32,748 nucleotides of DNA from Variovorax sp. (GCA_028292285.1 JAQGMP010000318.1:1-32748), one strand, 5' to 3'; positions 17,586 to 29,697 are shown, counted from the stretch's first letter. Made by a program: numbers and translations. The notes: a model not told the origin generated them from the sequence alone.

Positions 17586-18278
17586 TCAACCGGTCAAGCG
17601 CGAAGCTGCCAGCGTTGCGGTTATTTTCCGACGCTCCAGCATGGCCTTGGCCATCTCGCGGACCGCCTCCACCGTGTGCGCATCGGCGACATCCGGATGT
17701 CCGCTGCGGAAAGGCGGGGCCGGGTCATATTCGAGCATCAATTGAATTGCCTTCGCAGTTGCTTCGCCACGAAGCAATCTGAGCAATACGAACGCGAAGT
17801 CCAGGCCTGAGGTGACCCCGCCGCCGGTGACCCTGTTTCGGTCGATGACAACGCGATCAGGGACGACATCTACCTGGAACAACCGAAGATAGTCAAGCGA
17901 AAGCCAGTGACAAGTCGCCTTGTATCCGGTCAACAGGCCCGCAGCTGCCAACAAAAGGGAGCCGGTGCAAACCGAGGTAATCCACTGCGCACCCGCTGCT
18001 TGCTGCCGCAGAAAGGAGAAAAGTTCTTCGTCGTCCATGAGGTCGTTCTGGCCCGGCCCTCCGGGGACGACAACGACATCAAATTGAGGAGCGTCCAGAA
18101 AAGACATTGACGGCGTCACCAACAGCCCGGTGTCCCCGACAAACGGCGTACAGTCCTTCCAGACCAGATGCGCCGTGCTGTTGGGTGCTCTTGCCAATAT
18201 CTCGAACGGCGCAAGCGCATCGAGTGACGTCATTTTCGGGAACGCAAGCACTCCGATCTGCAGATGTTTGTCAGTCAT
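17586..18278 (-). CDS. DJ-1/PfpI family protein, isonitrile-hydratase-like (paralogue 1)
   Basis: 'LQIGVLAFPKMTSLDALAPFEILARAPNSTAHLVWKD...VVPGGPGQNDLMDDEELFSFLRQQAAGAQWITSVCTGSLLLAAAGLLTGYKATCHW'; keeps D and CT of the InhA-type active site. Confidence 0.9.
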   Translation of the reverse strand: MTDKHLQIGVLAFPKMTSLDALAPFEILARAPNSTAHLVWKDCTPFVGDTGLLVTPSMSFLDAPQFDVVVVPGGPGQNDLMDDEELFSFLRQQAAGAQWITSVCTGSLLLAAAGLLTGYKATCHWLSLDYLRLFQVDVVPDRVVIDRNRVTGGGVTSGLDFAFVLLRLLRGEATAKAIQLMLEYDPAPPFRSGHPDVADAHTVEAVREMAKAMLERRKITATLAASRLTG

Positions 18279-18308
18279 GTTCGTTGGTCCTGTCACGAAG
18301 TGGGTGCC

Positions 18309-19445
18309 TCATCGCAAGCGCTGCGGCGAAAGGCTGCTGGCTCGCACGCCAAAATTCGAGAGGTGCGTGGGCATAGGCTGGTCCAGCAGCAGCGAGGCAG
18401 CCAACTGCGAAGCAGCAGACGCGGTCTGGATACCGTATCCGCCTTGCCCGGCGACCCAAAAAAAGCTCGGACAGTCTGTGTCCTTGCCGATCACGAGTTC
18501 GCCGTCGGCAACGAACGAGCGCAGACCGGCCCAGACGTGTTTTGGTCGTCGTATCTGCATCGTAGAGACCTCCTCGATGTGATAAATTCCTGTGGCGACG
18601 TCAAGCTCCTCTGGCTGTACATCGTGCGGTTCGACCGCATCGGCGTTCGCTGGCGAACCCAGCAGTTGGCCCGCATCCGGCTTGAAGTAATACGACTCGT
18701 CGATGCCTATCACCATGGGCCATGCCGAAAAGTCGGTGCCCGAAGACGCGTCGAAAGTAAACGCGGATCGTCTCTTCGGCTGTAGTCCAATCGGCTTTAC
18801 ACCGCTGCACTGCGGGACCACATCGGCCCAGGCACCCGCTGCATTGACCAACGTGCTCGTGGTAAGGGTACGGCCGTCGGCGAGACGAATCGTCCATTTG
18901 CCATCGCGGAACACCGCGGAAACCAGATCCGCATCGGCGAGCAGTTGGCCCTGATGGGCGCGAAAGCCGCGCAGATAGCCCTGGTGCAACGCGTGGACGT
19001 CCATGTCCATTGCATCGGATTCCAGAACGGCGCCGCAAATGAGGTCGTTGCGCAGCAGGGGGCAGCGTTCAAGCGTCTGTTCGACGGACAACAACTCAAC
19101 GCTCGGGGAGGTTTGCAGTGCGATCGTAAAAGCGTCGGCAAGCTCCTTCTCCTGCCCGATCCTGGCCACATGCATCACGCCACGGGCGGAAAGGATGGGA
19201 TGCTCCGTAAAGCCTGCGGGCGGCGCGGTGTAGAAAGCGCGGCTGGCGCGCGTCAGTGCACGCACCGCGGGGCCGCCATACGTCTCGATGAACATCGCAG
19301 CCGATCGGCCGGTGGCGTGGTAGCCCGGTTGCGATTCGCGCTCCAGCAGCGCAACCTGCGCATGAGACGCCAACTCGTAAGCCACGGAAGCACCGGCAAT
19401 GCCCGCGCCGATCACCACAAAATCGTAGTGCACCCTAAGCTCCAT
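18309..19445 (-). CDS. FAD-dependent D-amino-acid dehydrogenase, DauA (D-arginine dehydrogenase)-like
   Basis: 'YDFVVIGAGIAGASVAYELASHAQVALLERESQPGYHATGRSAAMFIETYGGPAVRALTRASRAFY', 'ALHQGYLRGFRAHQGQ', 'GLQPKRRSAFTF', 'YYFKPDAGQLLGSPANADAVEPHDVQPEELDVATGIYHIEE' closely recall DauA. Confidence 0.85.
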   Translation of the reverse strand: MELRVHYDFVVIGAGIAGASVAYELASHAQVALLERESQPGYHATGRSAAMFIETYGGPAVRALTRASRAFYTAPPAGFTEHPILSARGVMHVARIGQEKELADAFTIALQTSPSVELLSVEQTLERCPLLRNDLICGAVLESDAMDMDVHALHQGYLRGFRAHQGQLLADADLVSAVFRDGKWTIRLADGRTLTTSTLVNAAGAWADVVPQCSGVKPIGLQPKRRSAFTFDASSGTDFSAWPMVIGIDESYYFKPDAGQLLGSPANADAVEPHDVQPEELDVATGIYHIEEVSTMQIRRPKHVWAGLRSFVADGELVIGKDTDCPSFFWVAGQGGYGIQTASAASQLAASLLLDQPMPTHLSNFGVRASSLSPQRLR

Positions 19446-21357
19446 GCTCTTCGCCCATGCCCTGGTGATGAGGGTGAGCGGTCTGTTGCTTCTCTCTCGA
19501 TGACAACATCCTTTTCGCGCTCATGAAGCTGCCGGCGATGCCTTCACGGAACGCGAGAACTACGACGAAGAAGACCAGGCCCTGAGTGACCGTGACCCAA
19601 TCCCGTAATTCAGCCATGTAGGTCTCCATGCCGATCAGCGTCAACGCCCCAAGGACAGGTCCGATGATCGTCCCAAGACCTCCGACGAGAGCCATCAATA
19701 TGAACTCGCCGGAGGTTTGCCATGTGACGTCCGTGAGCGTTGCGATTTGCACTGCGATCGCCTTGGTGGCGCCTGCAAGGCCGGTTACGCCAGCAGAAAA
19801 CACGAAGACTGCAAGCTTGTATCGATTCACGTTGTAGCCCAACGAAATTGCGCGCGGTTCACTGTCACGAATCGCCGCGATGATGCGACCGTAGGGCGAA
19901 TGAACAAGCCTGGCGATCATCAATATGCAGGCCACGCAGATTGCAAGAACGAAGAAATAGGCGGAAACGTCCCCCTTGAGATTCCAAATTCCGAACGCCA
20001 CGCCGCGGGGGATATTCTGTATTCCGTCCTCGCCGTTCGTGAACGGAGCCTGGACACAAAAAAAGTAAACCATCTGTGCAAGGGCGAGTGTCGACATCGC
20101 GAAATAGATGCCTTGAAGTCGGATGGCAATAACTCCCACGATGCTTCCCGCTATCACCGAGGCGGCTGTTGCGACCAGGATGGCCCATTCAGGAGCCATC
20201 CCATACTTGGTCGCAAGGTATCCGGAGACATAAGCGGAGAGGCCAAAGAACATGGCGTGTCCGAACGAGAGCATGCCCATGAAGCCGAGCAACAGGTTAA
20301 CGGCGCTTGCCGCAACGGCGAAGCAAAGCACCTTCACGAGAAACACGGGGTAGACGAAGAACGGCGCCAGCAGGAGGGCTATGACCGACGCGGCCAGCAG
20401 CACCCAACTTCCGGCCGTACGGCGGCTCGCAGTCGTGGATACCTGGCCAATCAGTGCGCCAGAAAATTTCTGCGTGAGCACGCCCTTGCCGAACAAACCC
20501 GCAGGTTTGAAAAGAAGGACTGCCGCCATGATGATGAACACCACGGTGTCGGCCAAGGGCGCGTAGAAGACTTTGACGAGTCCTTCCGACAGGCCCAGCA
20601 TGTAGCCGGTCAAAATGGCGCCCTTGATCGATCCCATACCGCCGATGACGACGACTGCGAAGATGACCACGATCAGATTGGACCCCATCGTGGGGCTCAC
20701 GTTGTAGATGGGCGCAGCAAAAACGCCAGCCAGTCCAGCCAGACCGACCCCGAATCCATATACGAGCGTCACCATCAGGGGCACGTTGATACCAAATCCC
20801 CGAACTAGGTCCGGCCGCTCGACGGCGGCCCGGAGGTAGGCCCCTAGCTTGGTCTTTTCGATCGAGTACCAAGTGCCGAAGCAAACGATGAAGGATGCAA
20901 GCAGGGCCCACAACCGGTAGTAAGGCATGTAGCCCAATCCAGTGCGAAAGCCGCCCGGCAGCGGGTTGTCGTAGGGCAAGCCCGCGGCACCAAAGCCTTT
21001 TCGGTAGAGGCCTTCAACGATCAGCGTGACGCCGAAAGTCAACAACAAGCCGTAAGTGTGATCCAGATGATAGATGCGACGCACAAAGAGGCGCTCCATC
21101 AACATGCCGCTCGCGCCCACGGCCAGCGGTGCGAGCACGATGGCGAACCAGTAGTTGATGCCCAGCCACTGGAGCAGCATCCAGGCGGTGAAAGCTCCCA
21201 TCATGTATTGCGCGCCGTGCGTAAAGTTCACGACGTTCAACAAGCCAAAGATGATGGCGAGTCCGAGGCTGAGCATTGCGTAGAAGGAGCCATTTATCAG
21301 GCCAAGCAATACTTGCCCGACCAGGGCTTGGGGCGAAATACCCAAAACTTCAAACAT
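19435..21357 (-). CDS. Branched-chain amino acid-type ABC permease, LivH-LivM fusion
   Basis: N-half 'LINGSFYAMLSLGLAIIFGLLNVVNFTHGAQYMMGAF' (LivH), C-half 'FAVAASAVNLLLGFMGMLSFGHAMFFGLSAYVSGYLATKYG' (LivM) in one 640-aa ORF. Confidence 0.95.
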   Translation of the reverse strand: MFEVLGISPQALVGQVLLGLINGSFYAMLSLGLAIIFGLLNVVNFTHGAQYMMGAFTAWMLLQWLGINYWFAIVLAPLAVGASGMLMERLFVRRIYHLDHTYGLLLTFGVTLIVEGLYRKGFGAAGLPYDNPLPGGFRTGLGYMPYYRLWALLASFIVCFGTWYSIEKTKLGAYLRAAVERPDLVRGFGINVPLMVTLVYGFGVGLAGLAGVFAAPIYNVSPTMGSNLIVVIFAVVVIGGMGSIKGAILTGYMLGLSEGLVKVFYAPLADTVVFIIMAAVLLFKPAGLFGKGVLTQKFSGALIGQVSTTASRRTAGSWVLLAASVIALLLAPFFVYPVFLVKVLCFAVAASAVNLLLGFMGMLSFGHAMFFGLSAYVSGYLATKYGMAPEWAILVATAASVIAGSIVGVIAIRLQGIYFAMSTLALAQMVYFFCVQAPFTNGEDGIQNIPRGVAFGIWNLKGDVSAYFFVLAICVACILMIARLVHSPYGRIIAAIRDSEPRAISLGYNVNRYKLAVFVFSAGVTGLAGATKAIAVQIATLTDVTWQTSGEFILMALVGGLGTIIGPVLGALTLIGMETYMAELRDWVTVTQGLVFFVVVLAFREGIAGSFMSAKRMLSSREKQQTAHPHHQGMGEEHGA

Positions 21358-21359
21358 CT

Positions 21360-22148
21360 TCAGATTCCCAGATGTGCCTGAACACGAGAGGTGCCACCGA
21401 TCATCTCTTCACAAGTCAGCTCGTCGACGATCCGGCCGGTCTCCATGACGTAATGCCTGTCGGCGAGCTCACACGCAAATCGCAGGTTCTGCTCCACGAG
21501 CAGAATCGTGTAACCCCTTTCTTTGAGCGCATGGATTGTTTTGCCAATGAGCTTGACGATCACAGGCGCCAGTCCTTCGCTGGGCTCGTCCAGCAAGAGC
21601 AACTTGGCGCCCGTGCGAAGGATTCGCCCGATGGCCAACATTTGCTGTTCGCCGCCGGACAACTTGGTTCCTTGGCTAGCGCGACGCTCGTAAAGATTAG
21701 GGAACAGCTGGTACACCTCGTCCAGGGTCAAACCGCCCTGGCTGATCAGAGGGGGCAACGTCAGGTTCTCTAGAACGCTTAGCTGCGAAAAAATCCCGCG
21801 CTCCTCAGGACAGTAGGCCATGCCGAGCCGAGCAATCTGTTCCGGCAGGAAATTCGCGACCTGTGTACCCATGAAGTCGATCCAACCGGACTTCTCTTCG
21901 ATAAAGCCCATGAGACATTTCAGCGTCGTCGACTTTCCTGCGCCGTTGCGTCCGAGCAGTGTCACGATCTCCCCTTCCTGAAGATTGAAGCTGACTTCGT
22001 CAAGCACCCGGTTGCCCATGTAGCCCGCGCGAAGCTTCCGCACTTCAAGCACTGTCTTTCCCGTTTGAGATTCAGTGGCCAATGTAGGCTTCCAGTACGC
22101 GAGAGTCTTCGGCGACCATGTCGTAAGAACCCTCTGCGAGCACTTCAC
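21360..22148 (-). CDS. livF: Branched-chain amino acid-type ABC ATP-binding protein (LivF)
   Basis: 'GRNGAGKSTTLKCLMGFIEEKSGWIDFMG', 'KLSGGEQQMLAIGRIL', 'LLLLDEPSEGLAPVIV'; start may be internal (TTG near 22082) because the ORF overlaps livG. Confidence 0.93.
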   Translation of the reverse strand: MKCSQRVLTTWSPKTLAYWKPTLATESQTGKTVLEVRKLRAGYMGNRVLDEVSFNLQEGEIVTLLGRNGAGKSTTLKCLMGFIEEKSGWIDFMGTQVANFLPEQIARLGMAYCPEERGIFSQLSVLENLTLPPLISQGGLTLDEVYQLFPNLYERRASQGTKLSGGEQQMLAIGRILRTGAKLLLLDEPSEGLAPVIVKLIGKTIHALKERGYTILLVEQNLRFACELADRHYVMETGRIVDELTCEEMIGGTSRVQAHLGI

Positions 22149-22836
22149 CGCGACACAGGACTGTCACAACGTCGGAGAGCTTTTGCACGACCTTGAGGTT
22201 ATGCTCGACCATGACGATGGTGTTTCTGTCTGCCTGTTCCGCGATAAGGTCCGTGACACGTGCAACATCCTCAATGCCCAGACCCGCCATGGGCTCATCA
22301 AGCAGCGCCAATTCCGGCTCAAGCGCAAACGTGGTTGCGAGCTCGAGCGCACGCTTGCGGCCATAGGGAAGTTTGCCAGCAGCTACGTTTGCATACTCGC
22401 TCAGGCCAAACCTGCTGAGGAGCCCGTGGACGCGATCATCCAGTTCACTGAGGCATGCTGTTGAGCGCCAAAACACTTTTTGGAATCCAGATATTCGCTG
22501 GAGGGGGATGCACAGGTTCTGCGAGGCCGTCAGATGCGGAAAGACGGCGGAGATCTGGAATGACCGCACGACACCGTCGCGCGCCAGTTGCGCTGGCGGA
22601 GTGTGGGTGACTTCCAGCGCCTTGTAGAAGATGCTTCCCGAGTCGGCGTCCAGAAATCGAGTCAGCAGGTTGAATAAAGTGCTCTTGCCTGCGCCATTCG
22701 GCCCGATGACCGAATGGACAGTGTTGCGCCGCACCGTCAAATCAACATTGTTGACGGCCGTGAAGCCCGAGAAACTTCGGCTCAAGCCCGTAGCCGAAAG
22801 AATGATGTCTTGGGAGACGCTGCTGGCCGCAGTCAT
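22072..22836 (-). CDS. livG: Branched-chain amino acid-type ABC ATP-binding protein (LivG)
   Basis: 'GPNGAGKSTLFNLLTRFLDADSGSIFY', 'LPYGRKRALELATTFALEPELALLDEPMAGLG'. Confidence 0.94.
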   Translation of the reverse strand: MTAASSVSQDIILSATGLSRSFSGFTAVNNVDLTVRRNTVHSVIGPNGAGKSTLFNLLTRFLDADSGSIFYKALEVTHTPPAQLARDGVVRSFQISAVFPHLTASQNLCIPLQRISGFQKVFWRSTACLSELDDRVHGLLSRFGLSEYANVAAGKLPYGRKRALELATTFALEPELALLDEPMAGLGIEDVARVTDLIAEQADRNTIVMVEHNLKVVQKLSDVVTVLCRGEVLAEGSYDMVAEDSRVLEAYIGH

Positions 22837-24065
22837 TTGGTTTTAGCTGCAGCCTTGTCGACAAGGGGGCAGTCGCTCGCGCTCAGCGCGGACAACGCAT
22901 CGCTGGCCGGGATCACGGTGTTCACCTTGTAGTAATCCCAAGGGTATTTTGAGTCGGCCTTCGACTTGACGGTTACAAGCAGGAAGTCGTGACTGAGCTT
23001 GCCGTCCGGACGCAACATGCCATTCTTTTGATACATGTCATTGACAGGCGTGCTACGCATCTTCGCGTCTACAGCATCCGTTGCATCCGTTTTCGTCGCG
23101 ACGACGGCCTTGAGATAGTGGCTCGCTGCGGAGTACATGGCTGCCTGCGTCGCCGTTGGCATGGCCTTGAAGCGCTCAAAGAACCTGCGTCCGAATGCGC
23201 GAGACTGTTCGTTCAGGTCCCAATACCAGGCGGTGGTGGCCGAGAGCCCTTCGATGACGTCGAGGCCTGCAGCGTGGACGTCGGAAATTTCAAGGATGGT
23301 GGCGACGGGCTTCTGCTTGCCGCCCTGCATCCCGAATTCCTTCCACTGCTTCATCGAGTTGACCAGCTGCGCCCCACCATTGGCGAACATCACGGCTTTC
23401 GCATCGGAACTTTGCGCCTGAAGCAGGAAAGAACTGTAGTCGGTAGTGGCCATAGGGTGATAGGTCTCGCCAACGCTCCGGCCTCCGTTCGCAGCCAAAA
23501 TCTCCTTGGCGACTTGAACGGCGTTCTTTCCAAATGCAAAATCCGCGGCAACGAAATACCATGTGTCCGCACCGCTCTTTAGCAGCGATCTGACCGGGCC
23601 CGATACCAGCGCATAGGAGTCATGAAGCCAGGAATAACCAGTCCTCACGCACTGCTTTCCAGTCAGTTCCGTGGTGCCAATCGCACCGTACATCCCGATC
23701 TTGTTTTTCTCCTTGATAACCGTCTGAATTGCCAGTGCTACGGCAGAGTTGCTAACATCCATGATTGCATCGACTTTGTCCACATCGAACCAGCGCCTGG
23801 CGATCGTGACCCCTAGGTCTGCCTTGTTCTGATGGTCGGCAACCAGGACTTCAACCTTGATGCCTCCAAGTTGACCCTTCATGTCCTCAACAGCCATTTG
23901 GACCGCCAAGACCGAGCCGGGACCGCTCAAAGCCGAATACGGACCCGACTGGTCATTGATGACACCCAGCCGAACGACGTCGTCGGAGATCTGGGCAACA
24001 CAAGGCAAGGTGATTGAAGCCAGTGCGCAGAGAATCAAGTCTTTGATCGCATAACCGGTTTTCAT
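22833..24065 (-). CDS. Branched-chain amino acid-type ABC substrate-binding protein
   Basis: 'VVRLGVINDQSGPYSALSGPGSVLAVQMAVEDMKGQLGGIKVEVLVADHQNKADLGVTIARRWFDVDKVDAIMDVSNSAVALA' peripla_BP_6 type. Confidence 0.95.
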   Translation of the reverse strand: MKTGYAIKDLILCALASITLPCVAQISDDVVRLGVINDQSGPYSALSGPGSVLAVQMAVEDMKGQLGGIKVEVLVADHQNKADLGVTIARRWFDVDKVDAIMDVSNSAVALAIQTVIKEKNKIGMYGAIGTTELTGKQCVRTGYSWLHDSYALVSGPVRSLLKSGADTWYFVAADFAFGKNAVQVAKEILAANGGRSVGETYHPMATTDYSSFLLQAQSSDAKAVMFANGGAQLVNSMKQWKEFGMQGGKQKPVATILEISDVHAAGLDVIEGLSATTAWYWDLNEQSRAFGRRFFERFKAMPTATQAAMYSAASHYLKAVVATKTDATDAVDAKMRSTPVNDMYQKNGMLRPDGKLSHDFLLVTVKSKADSKYPWDYYKVNTVIPASDALSALSASDCPLVDKAAAKTK

Positions 24066-24805
24066 GAGACGTCCTTAGTGGAATTGAAGGAGGGGCCGCC
24101 GAGGTCGATCGGTATGGGCCTTGATCTTTGCAGGGCGGCCCTTGCAACCACAGGCGTCACGCTCTTGTGCAGGTCCGCCTCCGCAGCCAGGGCACGGGCT
24201 ACTCGCTCCGGCCCCGCCTTTTCGGGGGAGCCGCAATCAAAGGGCGGCTGCGGGTCGTACTCGAGACCTAGCTGAATCAACTTTGCGATCTCTTCCCCGC
24301 CCAGTTCTGCCGCCAACGTGAGGCCGAAATCAATGCCGGAAGTAACGCCGGCGCCTGACAAACGATTTCGATCGCGAACGACCCGCTCCCGGACCGGCTC
24401 TGCGCCGAACTGCGGGAGATAGTGCAACCACTTCCAGTTGCACGCCGACCTGTAGCCATCGATCAACCCTGCTGCGCCCAACAGCAAGGAGCCGTTGCAT
24501 ACCGACGTCACATAACGCGCCGCCGCTGCCTGTTGCCTCAGGAAGTCGATGGTCAATGCATCGGTCATCTGCTCGATCACACCAAAACCACCCGGGGCGC
24601 AAACCACGTCGAGTTGCGGGCAGTCCGCATAGGTCACCGTGGGGTTGATGGAAAAGCCGACATCGGTCATGACCGGCTCAAGCGACTTCCATACCAGGTG
24701 CACTTTCGCTCCCGGGACACGGCTGAGAACTTGGGCGGGTCCGGTCAAGTCGAGTTGTGTTACCCCCGGGAAGAGCAGAAATCCGACGTGGATGGTTGTG
24801 TTCAT
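24062..24805 (-). CDS. DJ-1/PfpI family protein, isonitrile-hydratase-like (paralogue 2)
   Basis: 'IHVGFLLFPGVTQLDLTGPAQVLSRVPGAKVHLVWKSLEPVMTDVGFSINPTVTYADCPQLDVVCAPGGFG...YVTSVCNGSLLLGAAGLIDGYRSACNW'; ATG at 24805. Confidence 0.9.
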   Translation of the reverse strand: MNTTIHVGFLLFPGVTQLDLTGPAQVLSRVPGAKVHLVWKSLEPVMTDVGFSINPTVTYADCPQLDVVCAPGGFGVIEQMTDALTIDFLRQQAAAARYVTSVCNGSLLLGAAGLIDGYRSACNWKWLHYLPQFGAEPVRERVVRDRNRLSGAGVTSGIDFGLTLAAELGGEEIAKLIQLGLEYDPQPPFDCGSPEKAGPERVARALAAEADLHKSVTPVVARAALQRSRPIPIDLGGPSFNSTKDVS

Positions 24806-24843: not shown

Positions 24844-24898
24844 ATTCTCGACAGCAGCGCGCATGGCGTAAATGACAGACTTAGGTCAATATCGGCCA
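24844..24898 (-). promoter_or_regulatory. Shared regulon promoter, copy A (upstream of the inh2-liv-dauA-inh1 operon)
   Basis: On minus strand: TGGCCGATA (24890-24898) and TGTCATTTA (24869-24877) 21 bp apart; -35 TTTACG (24867-24872), 17-bp spacer, -10 GAGAAT (24844-24849). Confidence 0.75.
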
Positions 24899-24932
24899 AA
24901 TGCCTCCCGCATTGACGATCGACGTGGCGGGA

Positions 24933-26585
24933 TCAGGGAACTGTGCACGCGTAATTGGTCGCGAGCGCGGCGGCTGCGGGGTCGTTGACCGGGCCGATAT
25001 ACCGCGGGTATTGCGGATAACGGCAAAGCGGGCGAGCGGCCTGGACGACACCGCTGGCCACCCGTGTCGCAGAGAGCGTTTCCGGCGCCGTCCCCTTGAC
25101 CGCCCAGGTATCCAGTGCGCTGAGCAGGTCGGTCTGGTCGGCGCCGGGGCCACCTTCACAGTGACCCACGCCCGGCGCTACGTAGTAGCGTACGAACTCG
25201 TCGGTGGCTGCCTGGCCTCCCACCGCATTGGTCATGGCTTGATAGTAGGCGGTCGTTGCCTTGGGACTGAGGGACGGGTCACTTCCACCGTGCCAAAGGA
25301 TGAGCTTGGCGTTGGCCTTCTTAAATGGACGCAGATCGGTGTTCGTCGCGTCGTTGAGTGCCGCCATGCTGTAGAGGGAACTCAGATTCGACTCAAAAGC
25401 GTAAGTGAGCGAATCTTGCGCCGGGTCGCGTGCCAGGTAGTTCTTCACGGTGGTGTCTTGGAACAGGTAATGGAGTGCGTTCAGCACGTTACCGTTGCCG
25501 GTGACCCACGAACCCCAACCAGCCGCCGAGTCGTCTTCGTTGCCGTTCAGAGGCAGAGCAAAACTTGTGTAGGTCCCGTTCACGAACGAGGCAGGCGAGG
25601 TCCGAGAGATCACAACGGCTAACTGCGGATCCGACAGACAGGTGTCGCCGGTGTCCGCACCCCCCGCGCAACGCAAAGACGTGGCGTCGAACGTGCATGC
25701 CTGCGGGTTGGAGACAATCCCGTCGACGATGCCGTCTTGTGCGTCGCAGGTATCGCGCACTGCCTTAGACAGCAACGCAAGCTTTGCGGCAGTGATTTGA
25801 CCACCGGGTGCTGCCACCGCCTTCTCGTTTCGATTCCAGTGACCCATGAATCCCACCCAGTTATACCCGGGTGCGCGTGCAATGATGCCATCGAACAGGT
25901 TGGGATTGCGCTCGGCTGCCATCAAGGCTTCCCGCCCCGCGTTCGAACATCCCTCGAAATACGACTTGGTCGGCGACGAGCCGTAGGCGGCGGTCACCGC
26001 TTTGAGTGCGGTCGACATGACTGTCGGCACTGAAAGGCTGCCGAAGAGTTGGGCCGCGAAGGTGTCATTTAACGCAAAGCTGGCATCGAGGCCGCTGGCC
26101 TGGTGCCCCGAATCGCTCGCGACTGCTGCGTAACCTTGCATCAAAGCAGGCAGCACCAGATCCGGAATCGAGCCGTCGTAGCCACCACCGCCGCCGTAAT
26201 AGAGCTTTCCATTCCACGCGTCAGGCAAACGCATTTCAAAATTCAGGGACGGCGCGATGGTGCCGTTGACTTTGCAGTAAGTGGGCACATTCCCGCTCGG
26301 CGGGACGACGACGCCAGTCAATGTGGCACCCGCGAGCGTTTTTCCGGACAGTGACTCGCAGGCAACTTTGGCGGTGACCGCAGGTTGGGTCGCATCCGCC
26401 GGTTGAGAGGTTGCAGGTGGCGCTGCTGACTGCGGGTTCGTCACTGGCGTTGCCAAGGCGAACGGCACCGAATTGTTGCCTCCGCCACCGCATGCCGACA
26501 TTAGGATCGAACACGTCGTCGTCACGGCGAGTACCGGCCTATGCGCCATACGTGACTGCAACTTTATCAATGATGCGAGCTTCAT
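24933..26585 (-). CDS. Tannase/feruloyl esterase family lipoprotein
   Basis: Lipobox 'CSILMSACGGGG'; 'TYCKVNGTIAPSLNFEMRLPDAWNGKLYYGGGGGYDG', nucleophile motif 'YFEGCSNAGREALMAAERNPNLFDGIIARAPGYNW', 'GVGHCEGGPGAD'. Start assigned to ATG 26585 because the predicted -10 lies at 26663-26668. Confidence 0.9.
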   Translation of the reverse strand: MKLASLIKLQSRMAHRPVLAVTTTCSILMSACGGGGNNSVPFALATPVTNPQSAAPPATSQPADATQPAVTAKVACESLSGKTLAGATLTGVVVPPSGNVPTYCKVNGTIAPSLNFEMRLPDAWNGKLYYGGGGGYDGSIPDLVLPALMQGYAAVASDSGHQASGLDASFALNDTFAAQLFGSLSVPTVMSTALKAVTAAYGSSPTKSYFEGCSNAGREALMAAERNPNLFDGIIARAPGYNWVGFMGHWNRNEKAVAAPGGQITAAKLALLSKAVRDTCDAQDGIVDGIVSNPQACTFDATSLRCAGGADTGDTCLSDPQLAVVISRTSPASFVNGTYTSFALPLNGNEDDSAAGWGSWVTGNGNVLNALHYLFQDTTVKNYLARDPAQDSLTYAFESNLSSLYSMAALNDATNTDLRPFKKANAKLILWHGGSDPSLSPKATTAYYQAMTNAVGGQAATDEFVRYYVAPGVGHCEGGPGADQTDLLSALDTWAVKGTAPETLSATRVASGVVQAARPLCRYPQYPRYIGPVNDPAAAALATNYACTVP

Positions 26586-26662
26586 CTTGAGGTCTTTCGC
26601 GAGAGTTGAGCTGGTGAGGGTCGAGTGGGTAGCACTGCCGAGCGATGGCCTGAGTGAAGTCA

Positions 26663-26717
26663 ATTCTCGGCACCCGTCCGTTTGGCGTAAATGACAAAAC
26701 GCGGCTAATATCCGCCA
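26663..26717 (-). promoter_or_regulatory. Shared regulon promoter, copy B (tannase promoter / araC 5' boundary)
   Basis: On minus strand: TGGCGGATA (26709-26717) and TGTCATTTA (26688-26696) 21 bp apart; -35 TTTACG (26686-26691), 17-bp spacer, -10 GAGAAT (26663-26668). Confidence 0.75.
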
Positions 26718-27710
26718 ATGTCATCACCTCGAAACGTCGCCATATTGACCTTTGATCGTTGCCAAATCCTGGACGTCACAGGCCCCGCAATGGTGTTCGC
26801 TGCCGGCAACGACGCATTGGGCAAGACCTTCTATAAGGTGCATCTCTTGTCGGCTAGAGGCGGCATCGTTCAGAGCAGCAGCACGGTGTCATTCCTCACG
26901 GCGCCGACCAAAGACCTCCCGTCCGGGACGATCGATACCTTGTTGATTGCGGGCGGTGACGACGCCGGCCTGCGCGAGCTTTCGGCCAATGCGGCAGTCA
27001 AGAAATGGGCTGTGCGTGCCAGTGAGAAGGCGCGTCGGTTCGGATCCATCTGCACAGGATCGTTTGCATTGGCGCAGTTCGGACTTCTTGACGGCAAGCG
27101 TGTCGCAACGCACTGGTCGGCTTGCTCGGCGCTGGCCGAGATTTGCCCCGGGGCCCAAGTCGACGCCAATGCGTTGTTCGTCAATGACGGTCGGCTGTGG
27201 ACGTCGGCGGGGGTCACCACGGGCATCGACATGAGCCTTGCGATGGTGGCCTCGGACCTCGGCGACGCGGTTGCCAACATGATCGCCAAGCGACTTGTCC
27301 TGTACGCGCGACGGCCGGGTTATCAGTCTCAGTTCAGTCCTGTTTTGAGCGCGCAGAGCCATGCGGATGCACCGTTCTCAGAATTGATCGACTGGATTCG
27401 CGAGAACCTTTCGCAGCCGTTGGAAGTTCCAAGACTTGCGTCTCGAGTCTCGATGTCGGAACGCACCTTCCTCCGCAATTTCACCCGTCGCGTCGGTGAG
27501 ACACCGGCGCGTTTTGTCGAGACCTTGAGACTCGACCAAACCCGTGTTTTTCTCGCGGCTGGCATGTCGCTGAAAGAGATCGCCTCGAAGGTCGGTTATC
27601 TCACCGCCGCGCAATTATCGAAGGCATTCGATCGGCGCTTTGGCATGACGCCCTTGTTGTTTCGGGAATTGCACTGCAGTGGCACGCGAGCCGGCGTCGA
27701 CTCCGACTAG
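26718..27710 (+). CDS. GlxA-type AraC family regulator with N-terminal DJ-1/PfpI domain
   Basis: N-term 'VAILTFDRCQILDVTGPAMVFAAGND...SICTGSFALAQFGLLDGKRVATHW'; C-term AraC HTH 'LASRVSMSERTFLRNFTRRVGETPARFVETLRLDQTRVFLAAGMSLKEIASKVGYLTAAQLSKAFDRRFGMTP'. Confidence 0.95.
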   Translation: MSSPRNVAILTFDRCQILDVTGPAMVFAAGNDALGKTFYKVHLLSARGGIVQSSSTVSFLTAPTKDLPSGTIDTLLIAGGDDAGLRELSANAAVKKWAVRASEKARRFGSICTGSFALAQFGLLDGKRVATHWSACSALAEICPGAQVDANALFVNDGRLWTSAGVTTGIDMSLAMVASDLGDAVANMIAKRLVLYARRPGYQSQFSPVLSAQSHADAPFSELIDWIRENLSQPLEVPRLASRVSMSERTFLRNFTRRVGETPARFVETLRLDQTRVFLAAGMSLKEIASKVGYLTAAQLSKAFDRRFGMTPLLFRELHCSGTRAGVDSD

Positions 27711-28144
27711 TTCCTCGGCGAACGGTCGCAATAGGTGCCCCCGACGCAAGCCATAGGAACATAGAGTTCACCCTGTATGCGCCATTTGCGATTCGCGCAA
27801 ACCCATTGGGCCGCATAGCGCCCTCGTAGTTCGACGCTTCCGTCGGGTTCCGTCCATCGCCCTGTCCAGTCCCCTTCTTCGAAAGCAACACCCCACGCAG
27901 ACATGACCGAGACCGAGATCGGTGTCCGAACCCACAAGGTGTCGGGCCTTCTCGCAAATTGCGCCATGTAGAAACGGCGGTTGGCCTCGGCACCCAGCAG
28001 CTGAACAGAGGTCGAGCCTAAGACCAGGATGTCATCCATCCACACACTGGCGATGTCCTCGATTTCCTGGCGAACAATCGCCAAGTTCGACGACGCACGC
28101 GCTGCGCGAATCATGTGTTCGTCGGTCGCCCTTTCAGTACTCAC
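27707..28144 (-). CDS. SnoaL-like / NTF2-fold protein
   Basis: 'IVRQEIEDIASVWMDDILVLGSTSVQLLGAEANRRFYMAQFARRPDTLWVRTP...GRYAAQWVCANRKWRIQGELYV'; GTG start overlaps the upstream TGA (GTGA). Confidence 0.75.
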   Translation of the reverse strand: MSTERATDEHMIRAARASSNLAIVRQEIEDIASVWMDDILVLGSTSVQLLGAEANRRFYMAQFARRPDTLWVRTPISVSVMSAWGVAFEEGDWTGRWTEPDGSVELRGRYAAQWVCANRKWRIQGELYVPMACVGGTYCDRSPRN

Positions 28145-29604
28145 GCTGCAACCTTGTCCTGTCGCGTGATCACCTGGCCGCTGCGCGCTCCGCTGTGCAT
28201 GCCGTGCTGCCAGGTGACGGTGCCGTTGACGATCACGGTGTCGATGCCTTCCGCTGGCTCCGTAGGCGTCGCGTAGTTGGCCGCGTCACGTATCGTGGCC
28301 GCGTCGAAGATCACGATGTCGGCGTGCTGCCCGACCTGTAACGTGCCGCGGCCGTGCAGGCCGAAGTTTCTCGCAGTGAGACCCGTCATCTTCCAGACCG
28401 CGGTCTCGAGCGGAAACAAGCCGATGTCTCGGCTGTAGTGGCCGAGCACCCGCGGAAACGTGCCCCATAGCCGCGGGTGCGGCTTGTCGCCGAGCGGGAT
28501 GCCGTCGGAACCGATCATCGTTTCGTCAAACGCCAGCACCCGCTGCACGTCGTCTTCGTCCATCATGAAATAGATGGCGGTGCCGGGCTGCAGTGTGAGG
28601 GCCGCCTCCTCTTTCGACACGCTCCATTCCTTCGCGATCTCGGCCAGATCGCGGCCGGCGCATTCGGGATGCGGTTCGCTGCTGGCGATGAGCACGCGTC
28701 CGCCAAGCATGCCGCCGTCGGCGCGGATCATGGTGGAGCCGGCCGTGTAGGGGTAGCAGTCGAGCGACACACATTGGTGCTTCATCGTTTTCTCGATGAG
28801 GGGCAACGTGATCTTGGTTTGACCAAAATTGGGAGCATGCATCGCCTTGTGATGCGACAGGACCACCGGTACCTCCAACGCGCGACCAATGGCGAAGGAC
28901 TCTTCCATCGCTTCCAAGATCTTGTCGGCCTCGTCGCGCATATGCGTCACGTAGAGGGCGCCCCGCGCTGTCAAGGGGCGGCCGACCTCGATGATCTCGT
29001 CGGTCGTCGCCTCTGCTGCCGCCGCATAGAAAGTGCCAGTGGACATGCCGATGGCGCCGGCTGCCATCGCCTCTTCGACGTGCATACGCATGGCTGCAAT
29101 CTCCGTCGGGTTGGCTGGCCTGTCCAGCTCGCTCATGATGAGTCCGCGAAGCGTCGAATGGCCGACCATGGCTGCCACGTTCACCGAAGAGGGCGTTGCA
29201 CGCAGCGCATCGAGGTAGGCGGCAAACGTGGTGAAGCGCCCTTCCGCGGGTGCGTCGATCAGATTCAGCGGCATTGGCAGATCCATGTCGGCGCGCAGCG
29301 GTGCGGCACTCACGCCGCAGTTGCCTGTCACCACCGTGGTCACGCCCTGCGATATCTTGAAAGGCATCGCCGCCTGTGACAGCACGGCCTGGTCGTCGTG
29401 GGTGTGCGAGTCGATGAATCCGGGTGCCACCATGCGGTCGGTAGCATCGAGCGTTTGGTCGGCGGTCGCGAACGACAGGTCACCGACCGCGGCGATGAAT
29501 CCATCGACGATACCGACATCTGCGTTGAATCGGGGGGCCTTGGTGCCGTCGATGACGGTGCCACCACGTATCAGCAGATGGTAGTGATCGTGCAGATTGC
29601 TCAT
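28141..29604 (-). CDS. N-acyl-D-amino-acid deacylase (D-aminoacylase) family amidohydrolase
   Basis: 'LLIRGGTVIDGTKAPRFNADVGIVDGFIAAVGDL', 'MVAPGFIDSHTHDDQAVL', 'ISQGVTTVVTGNCGVSAAPL', 'GALYVTHMRDEADKILEAMEESFAIGRALEVPVVLSHHKAM'; ATG at 29604. Confidence 0.93.
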   Translation of the reverse strand: MSNLHDHYHLLIRGGTVIDGTKAPRFNADVGIVDGFIAAVGDLSFATADQTLDATDRMVAPGFIDSHTHDDQAVLSQAAMPFKISQGVTTVVTGNCGVSAAPLRADMDLPMPLNLIDAPAEGRFTTFAAYLDALRATPSSVNVAAMVGHSTLRGLIMSELDRPANPTEIAAMRMHVEEAMAAGAIGMSTGTFYAAAAEATTDEIIEVGRPLTARGALYVTHMRDEADKILEAMEESFAIGRALEVPVVLSHHKAMHAPNFGQTKITLPLIEKTMKHQCVSLDCYPYTAGSTMIRADGGMLGGRVLIASSEPHPECAGRDLAEIAKEWSVSKEEAALTLQPGTAIYFMMDEDDVQRVLAFDETMIGSDGIPLGDKPHPRLWGTFPRVLGHYSRDIGLFPLETAVWKMTGLTARNFGLHGRGTLQVGQHADIVIFDAATIRDAANYATPTEPAEGIDTVIVNGTVTWQHGMHSGARSGQVITRQDKVAA

Positions 29605-29642
29605 TTGCTTTTCAGTTTCCCGGCAAGGTTGCCGCACCGTCG

Positions 29643-29697
29643 ATTTTGGACAACCAGACGGTCTGGGTAAACGACAAAAGCCCGCCTGTATCCGCCA
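29643..29697 (-). promoter_or_regulatory. Shared regulon promoter, copy C (upstream of the D-aminoacylase-SnoaL pair)
   Basis: On minus strand: TGGCGGATA (29689-29697) and TGTCGTTTA (29668-29676) 21 bp apart; -35 TTTACC (29666-29671), 17-bp spacer, -10 CAAAAT (29643-29648). Confidence 0.72.

Follow-up and report, generated by a model that had tools for sequence, protein, structure and literature searches.

We analysed a stretch of 32,748 nucleotides (nt) from Variovorax sp. (GCA_028292285.1 JAQGMP010000318.1:1-32748; hereafter the window, with coordinates counted from its start), in which three sites are very probably the operators of one small local regulon under the GlxA/AraC protein encoded at 26718-27710. 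This confidence refers to the regulon and its regulator, and the pathway falls outside it; the regulon possibly imports and breaks down a compound of the isonitrile or N-acyl-amino-acid type. Conservation of the site, second copies of it before aminoacylase genes, and its absence from loci with other GlxA regulators make the regulon reading well supported. One GlxA/AraC regulon with three operators had been proposed earlier from the DNA alone (the sequence-only reading), and comparative genomics lent this proposal strong support. Regulator and operator type are already known, and the regulon is apparently new: searches of the open-access literature turned up nothing relevant on it or on any published connection of isonitrile hydratase with a GlxA regulator, and surfaced no regulated pathway for isonitrile hydratases.

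Three sites of one pattern and their conservation

The window has three exact matches to the pattern TGGCSGATA-N12-TGTCRTTTA and no others; they lie at 24898, 26717 and 29697, always on the minus strand, compared with an expectation of 0.00 from shuffled sequences. The sequence-only reading had placed three minus-strand copies of about 55 base pairs (bp) here, each with a -35-like TTTACG or TTTACC, a 17-bp spacer and a GAGAAT, GAGAAT or CAAAAT hexamer, and all of these were found as described.

24864 to 24898, minus strand: predicted operator A, TGGCCGATATTGACCTAAGTCTGTCATTTACGCCA, preceding the inh2-livKGF-livHM-dauA-inh1 operon; exact pattern match, second of 65,418 positions with the other-species matrix
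24844 to 24872, minus strand: promoter A, TTTACG at 24872-24867, 17 bp, GAGAAT at 24849-24844; read from sequence, spacing kept in relatives
26683 to 26717, minus strand: predicted operator B, TGGCGGATATTAGCCGCGTTTTGTCATTTACGCCA, between the tannase gene and the divergent regulator gene, adjoining the regulator ATG; exact match, ranked first by the matrix
26663 to 26691, minus strand: promoter B, toward the tannase gene, TTTACG at 26691-26686, 17 bp, GAGAAT at 26668-26663; read from sequence
29663 to 29697, minus strand: predicted operator C, TGGCGGATACAGGCGGGCTTTTGTCGTTTACCCAG, preceding the D-aminoacylase-SnoaL pair; exact match, ranked third by the matrix
29643 to 29671, minus strand: promoter C, TTTACC at 29671-29666, 17 bp, CAAAAT at 29648-29643; read from sequence
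26718 to 27710, plus strand: GlxA-type regulator, with a DJ-1/PfpI sensor domain (6-178) and an AraC HTH_18 domain (240-317; Pfam)

Across A, B and C, 33 of 62 columns were identical; random triples averaged 4.5. Measured from where the site starts, the ATG lies 93 bp away at both A (site 24898, ATG 24805) and C (site 29697, ATG 29604). That the two distances are equal had been claimed correctly, but the figure given was 59 bp. TTTAC lies inside the site and is followed by a 17-bp spacer in 11/11 tabulated sites from the window and its relatives. An operator over the -35 at fixed spacing, kept in relatives, is consistent with the class II activation suggested earlier.

As the pattern was derived from the three sites themselves, we added a non-circular test with a matrix to which only regulator promoters of other species contributed sites. 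The window sites ranked as the top three with scores of 56.8, 41.6 and 19.7, and the best of the remaining 65,415 positions reached 0.5. The window's own genome (58.8% complete, 695 contigs) gave no further match to the pattern at up to two mismatches beyond these three sites. Five matches appeared at three mismatches, compared with two for a reversed-pattern control, and were dropped as sites on their matrix scores of at most 8.7 against 59-72 for real sites.

Orthologs of the regulator at 57-78% identity were found in Pseudorhodoferax soli, P. aquiterrae, two Variovorax isolates and one Variovorax metagenome-assembled genome (MAG), and further in Allopusillimonas ginsengisoli and Salinisphaera and, in fragmentary form, in a Terriglobia MAG. 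In every ortholog examined the site adjoins the regulator start codon, with 0-1 mismatches in L009-L014 and L016 and four in L015 (L011, L013 and L015 denote the loci of Variovorax sp. WDL1, Allopusillimonas and Salinisphaera, respectively), so that the position of operator B is kept at eight ortholog loci. The genome scan and the comparison of orthologous loci, both named as checks in the sequence-only reading, came out in its favour. Counterparts of site C lie before D-aminoacylase genes at L009:14090, L010:12322 and L014:10138, and L012 has a second site, with three mismatches, before a flavin adenine dinucleotide (FAD) oxidase gene leading into D-aminoacylase and SnoaL genes. Sites with at most one mismatch were almost all confined to this locus in the relatives. 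Only one of 301 family genomes (G176) has a close (78%) ortholog, and there the site is present at both the regulator and the aminoacylase; four others gave one single-mismatch match each; these genomes are without a close ortholog, and we took the matches as background.

Three family genomes provided a natural control, since orthologs of the isonitrile hydratase homologue inh2 (67-73% identity) lie there near a GlxA regulator of only 38-40% identity. No matrix match was seen in their 18-kilobase loci (best scores -3.1 to -5.8), in which inh2 or the regulator has different TGGC-N27-GCCA sites close by. The absence of the site where the regulator is replaced, despite the presence of inh2, indicates that the operator goes with the regulator and not with the target gene.

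With respect to symmetry, the candidate half-sites (TGGCGG/TGTCAT) start 21 bp apart in direct orientation, forming a TGKC repeat, and the site is also an imperfect 35-bp dyad, TGGCG...CGCCA. The direct repeats abutting the -35 that had been described cover only half of this symmetry. Mean matches, out of 14, were 8.5-8.9 for the inverted repeat and at best 6.4 for direct repeats, with the dyad reaching 12/14 in the sites that precede the aminoacylase genes of L009 and L010; set side by side, a model with direct repeats alone and one with the dyad alone each left some sites unexplained. Both repeat types were enriched upstream of 58 GlxA paralogues (L031-L048, L082-L121). TGKC pairs at 21 bp occurred on 29 locus-strands, against 3-18 at other spacings, and TGGC-N26/27-GCCA was over-represented (9 and 8 of the 58 loci), albeit with a few other spacings reaching 7-8 and a dyad background that is probably in part codon periodicity, as spacings of 16, 28 and 37 were common too. 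This suggests a family-wide autoregulatory operator upstream of GlxA-type regulator genes.

Target genes and a possible catabolic role

The genes downstream of the three sites include those of an ABC importer, two hydratase homologues, a D-aminoacylase and a DauA-like dehydrogenase.

24062 to 24805, minus strand: inh2, isonitrile hydratase homologue, first gene of operon A (53% identical to InhA, E=1.3e-69)
22833 to 24065, minus strand: livK-type periplasmic binding protein (Peripla_BP_6)
19435 to 22836, minus strand: livG and livF ATPases and fused livH-livM permease of 640 amino acids (Pfam, NCBIfam)
18309 to 19445, minus strand: DauA-like FAD D-amino-acid dehydrogenase (D-arginine dehydrogenase 3NYC, E=1.4e-128)
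17586 to 18296, minus strand: inh1, isonitrile hydratase homologue, last gene of the operon (47% identical to InhA, E=6.5e-62)
24933 to 26585, minus strand: tannase/feruloyl esterase-like protein, downstream of promoter B (Pfam Tannase, E=3.1e-102)
28141 to 29604, minus strand: D-aminoacylase (1RJP, E=1.4e-175)
27707 to 28144, minus strand: SnoaL/DUF4440 protein (PF14534)

The LivH-LivM fusion (19435-21357) is a single protein with a near-full-length match in relatives. Translation of the tannase probably begins with the ATG at 26585; the TTG listed for it (26663) falls within the promoter.

The regulator gene and inh2-livK-livG-livF-livHM are divergently oriented in L009-L012 and L014, which implies that site B drives the hydratase-transporter operon directly there. 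The window differs in that the tannase gene is interposed, such that site B fronts the tannase and site A fronts inh2. A tannase gene lies downstream of the regulator on the same strand in L009 and a remnant persists in L012, indicating that the tannase belongs to the neighbourhood without a fixed position. Its place in the window is specific to this genome, the gene being elsewhere or absent in relatives, and its earlier listing as a core target was not supported. The tannase may have come to separate the regulator from the operon in this lineage; the fact that A and B are the most alike of the three pairs (44/62 identical columns, compared with 36 and 40 for the pairs with C) lends weak support to a duplication at that step, with A as a copy of B. 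A DauA-like gene is present in L009, L010 and L014, and inh1-type genes occur at differing places; the common denominator is the regulator, a hydratase homologue and, where enough sequence is present, an import system.

Catalytic roles for Asp17 and Cys101 have been described in isonitrile hydratase (PMC10971408). The equivalents in Inh1 and Inh2 are invariant columns when aligned with InhA, although the hydration activity itself is only predicted, and the Asp and Cys of the hydratase are also kept in the sensor domain of the regulator, a shared feature that the sequence-only reading had missed. The gene content suggests a pathway in which a small compound would be imported, an isonitrile group hydrated to the formamide, and the N-acyl-D-amino acid deacylated, followed by DauA-like oxidation. 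The enzymes would suit a conversion of isonitrile to keto acid by way of N-formyl-D-amino acid, but this is speculative.

In Allopusillimonas (L013:4853-7902) and Salinisphaera (L015:4837-8126), the regulator is divergent from a TonB-dependent receptor gene, after which comes a hydratase homologue whose N-terminus is signal-like. This pairing hints at a metallophore-type substrate. One could go further and propose a regulon dedicated to a natural isonitrile (an isocyano acid or an isonitrile metallophore) that is sensed, imported and mineralised. The sensor domain with its hydratase Asp/Cys would then detect the isonitrile, the hydratases would yield an N-formyl compound, D-aminoacylase would take off its formyl or acyl moiety, leaving a D-amino acid for the DauA-like enzyme to oxidise. 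The receptor-hydratase pair facing the regulator in two distant lineages would fit a metallophore. We give this reading as a whole a rather low probability.

Proposed control and its alternatives

For the local regulon itself, we propose that a dimer of the regulator binds the 35-bp site overlapping a weak -35, and that the inducer-bound protein would bring in RNA polymerase at a promoter whose -10 is poor and whose spacer measures 17 bp, in the manner of class II activation. Binding at site A would switch on inh2-livKGF-livHM-dauA-inh1, at site C the D-aminoacylase-SnoaL pair, and at site B the tannase. A second promoter, missed by the sequence-only reading, appears to overlap site B on the opposite strand.

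26682 to 26711, plus strand: putative regulator promoter inside operator B, TTGGCG at 26682-26687, 18 bp, TAATAT at 26706-26711, 6 nt upstream of the ATG at 26718

A scan for consensus sigma-70 promoters around site B returned nothing over threshold; since the hexamers are weak, we infer this promoter from conservation. TAATAT stands 6-7 nt before the ATG in 9/9 regulator promoters, with no in-frame start codon upstream, and is missing from all A and C sites, while the TTGGCG element varies in L011, L013 and L015. A TAATAT that closely precedes the ATG and lies inside operator B implies that the transcript plausibly starts at or near the ATG, giving a leaderless mRNA, and that the regulator bound there would repress its own synthesis.

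The overlap of the sites with the -35 elements, and of site B with the regulator's own promoter, would also fit if the protein were mainly a repressor, with ligand binding relieving repression of the enzyme operons. However, the -10 hexamers GAGAAT and CAAAAT are poor and no strong sigma-70 match exists around site B, as activator-dependent promoters would show, and CdhR, a relative already described, is an activator of its catabolic operon; a predominantly repressing role is therefore improbable. We regard as less probable still that the three operators belong to a different member of the regulator family with its gene at another locus, the adjacent gene being just one target. The own genome does hold at least two further GlxA paralogues (C589 and C363), and related regulators such as GbdR and CdhR can share overlapping sites (PMC5806209). 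Nevertheless, the operator tracks the ortholog group, as convincing copies among the 301 family genomes occurred only alongside the close ortholog, and it was missing from the genomes in which the hydratase is accompanied by another GlxA. Promoter-like elements share some similarity anyway, but chance or generic likeness without regulatory meaning has next to no probability in view of the number of identical columns, conservation that spans genera and one distant MAG, and the cross-species matrix, which speaks decisively against it.

Some observations count against control of three operators by the adjacent regulator, or against individual steps of the scheme. Distant sites may have been missed, as the own genome is only partly complete. 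Site C scores weakest of the three and its dyad symmetry is small (5/14). The hexamers of the regulator promoter match consensus at 4/6 positions each, below the sigma-70 scan threshold, and site B is slightly nearer to a relative's site (L014_B, 47/62) than to A, which leaves the duplication step weakly supported. Finally, L011 has no second site. This locus carries a gene for a helix-turn-helix regulator (XRE/cupin-like; L011:11231-11884) between the D-aminoacylase and FAD oxidase genes, and this gene and the absent second operator possibly reflect a change of control.

Taken together, the analysis yields a precise, testable operator-regulator pair for a cluster of isonitrile hydratase homologues, D-aminoacylase and D-amino-acid dehydrogenase. 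The enzymes of the cluster suggest a catabolic role for isonitrile hydratases, and the identity of the inducer would reveal the substrate.

Comparison with known systems

CdhR, GbdR, SouR and ArgR of Pseudomonas aeruginosa form a group of AraC-family regulators with a DJ-1/GATase1-like sensor domain, and the window's regulator, with DJ-1/PfpI at the N-terminus and an AraC helix-turn-helix at the C-terminus, is of this GbdR/CdhR type. It is neither CdhR or GbdR proper (half-sites other than GGTCGC; 139 bits for the GbdR equivalog, cut-off 480) nor FtrA (209.6 bits for the NCBIfam FtrA equivalog, cut-off 425). CdhR of Pseudomonas aeruginosa has a divergent catabolic operon and a protected site of ∼34 bp, in which GGTCGC half-sites separated by a 15-bp spacer start 21 bp apart and are described as direct repeats; its sites are reported to be very similar to those of GbdR, SouR and ArgR (PMC5806209). 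A divergent, probably catabolic operon and 21 bp between the starts of the candidate half-sites recur in the system described here. Unlike CdhR, the window half-sites are TGGCGG/TGTCAT, an outer dyad is added and the targets are others, and whereas CdhR is described as class I, the window site overlaps the -35 in a class II-like manner.

Among the enzymes, Inh1 and Inh2 resemble InhA of Pseudomonas (e.g. 6NI5) in overall identity and in their catalytic Asp17/Cys101 equivalents, but Inh2 has Asn for Thr after the catalytic Cys, and both share an operon with an importer. The D-aminoacylase and the DauA-like enzyme are near full-length matches to 1RJP and 3NYC, respectively; unlike those systems, the enzymes are combined here with isonitrile hydratase homologues in what we predict to be one regulon.

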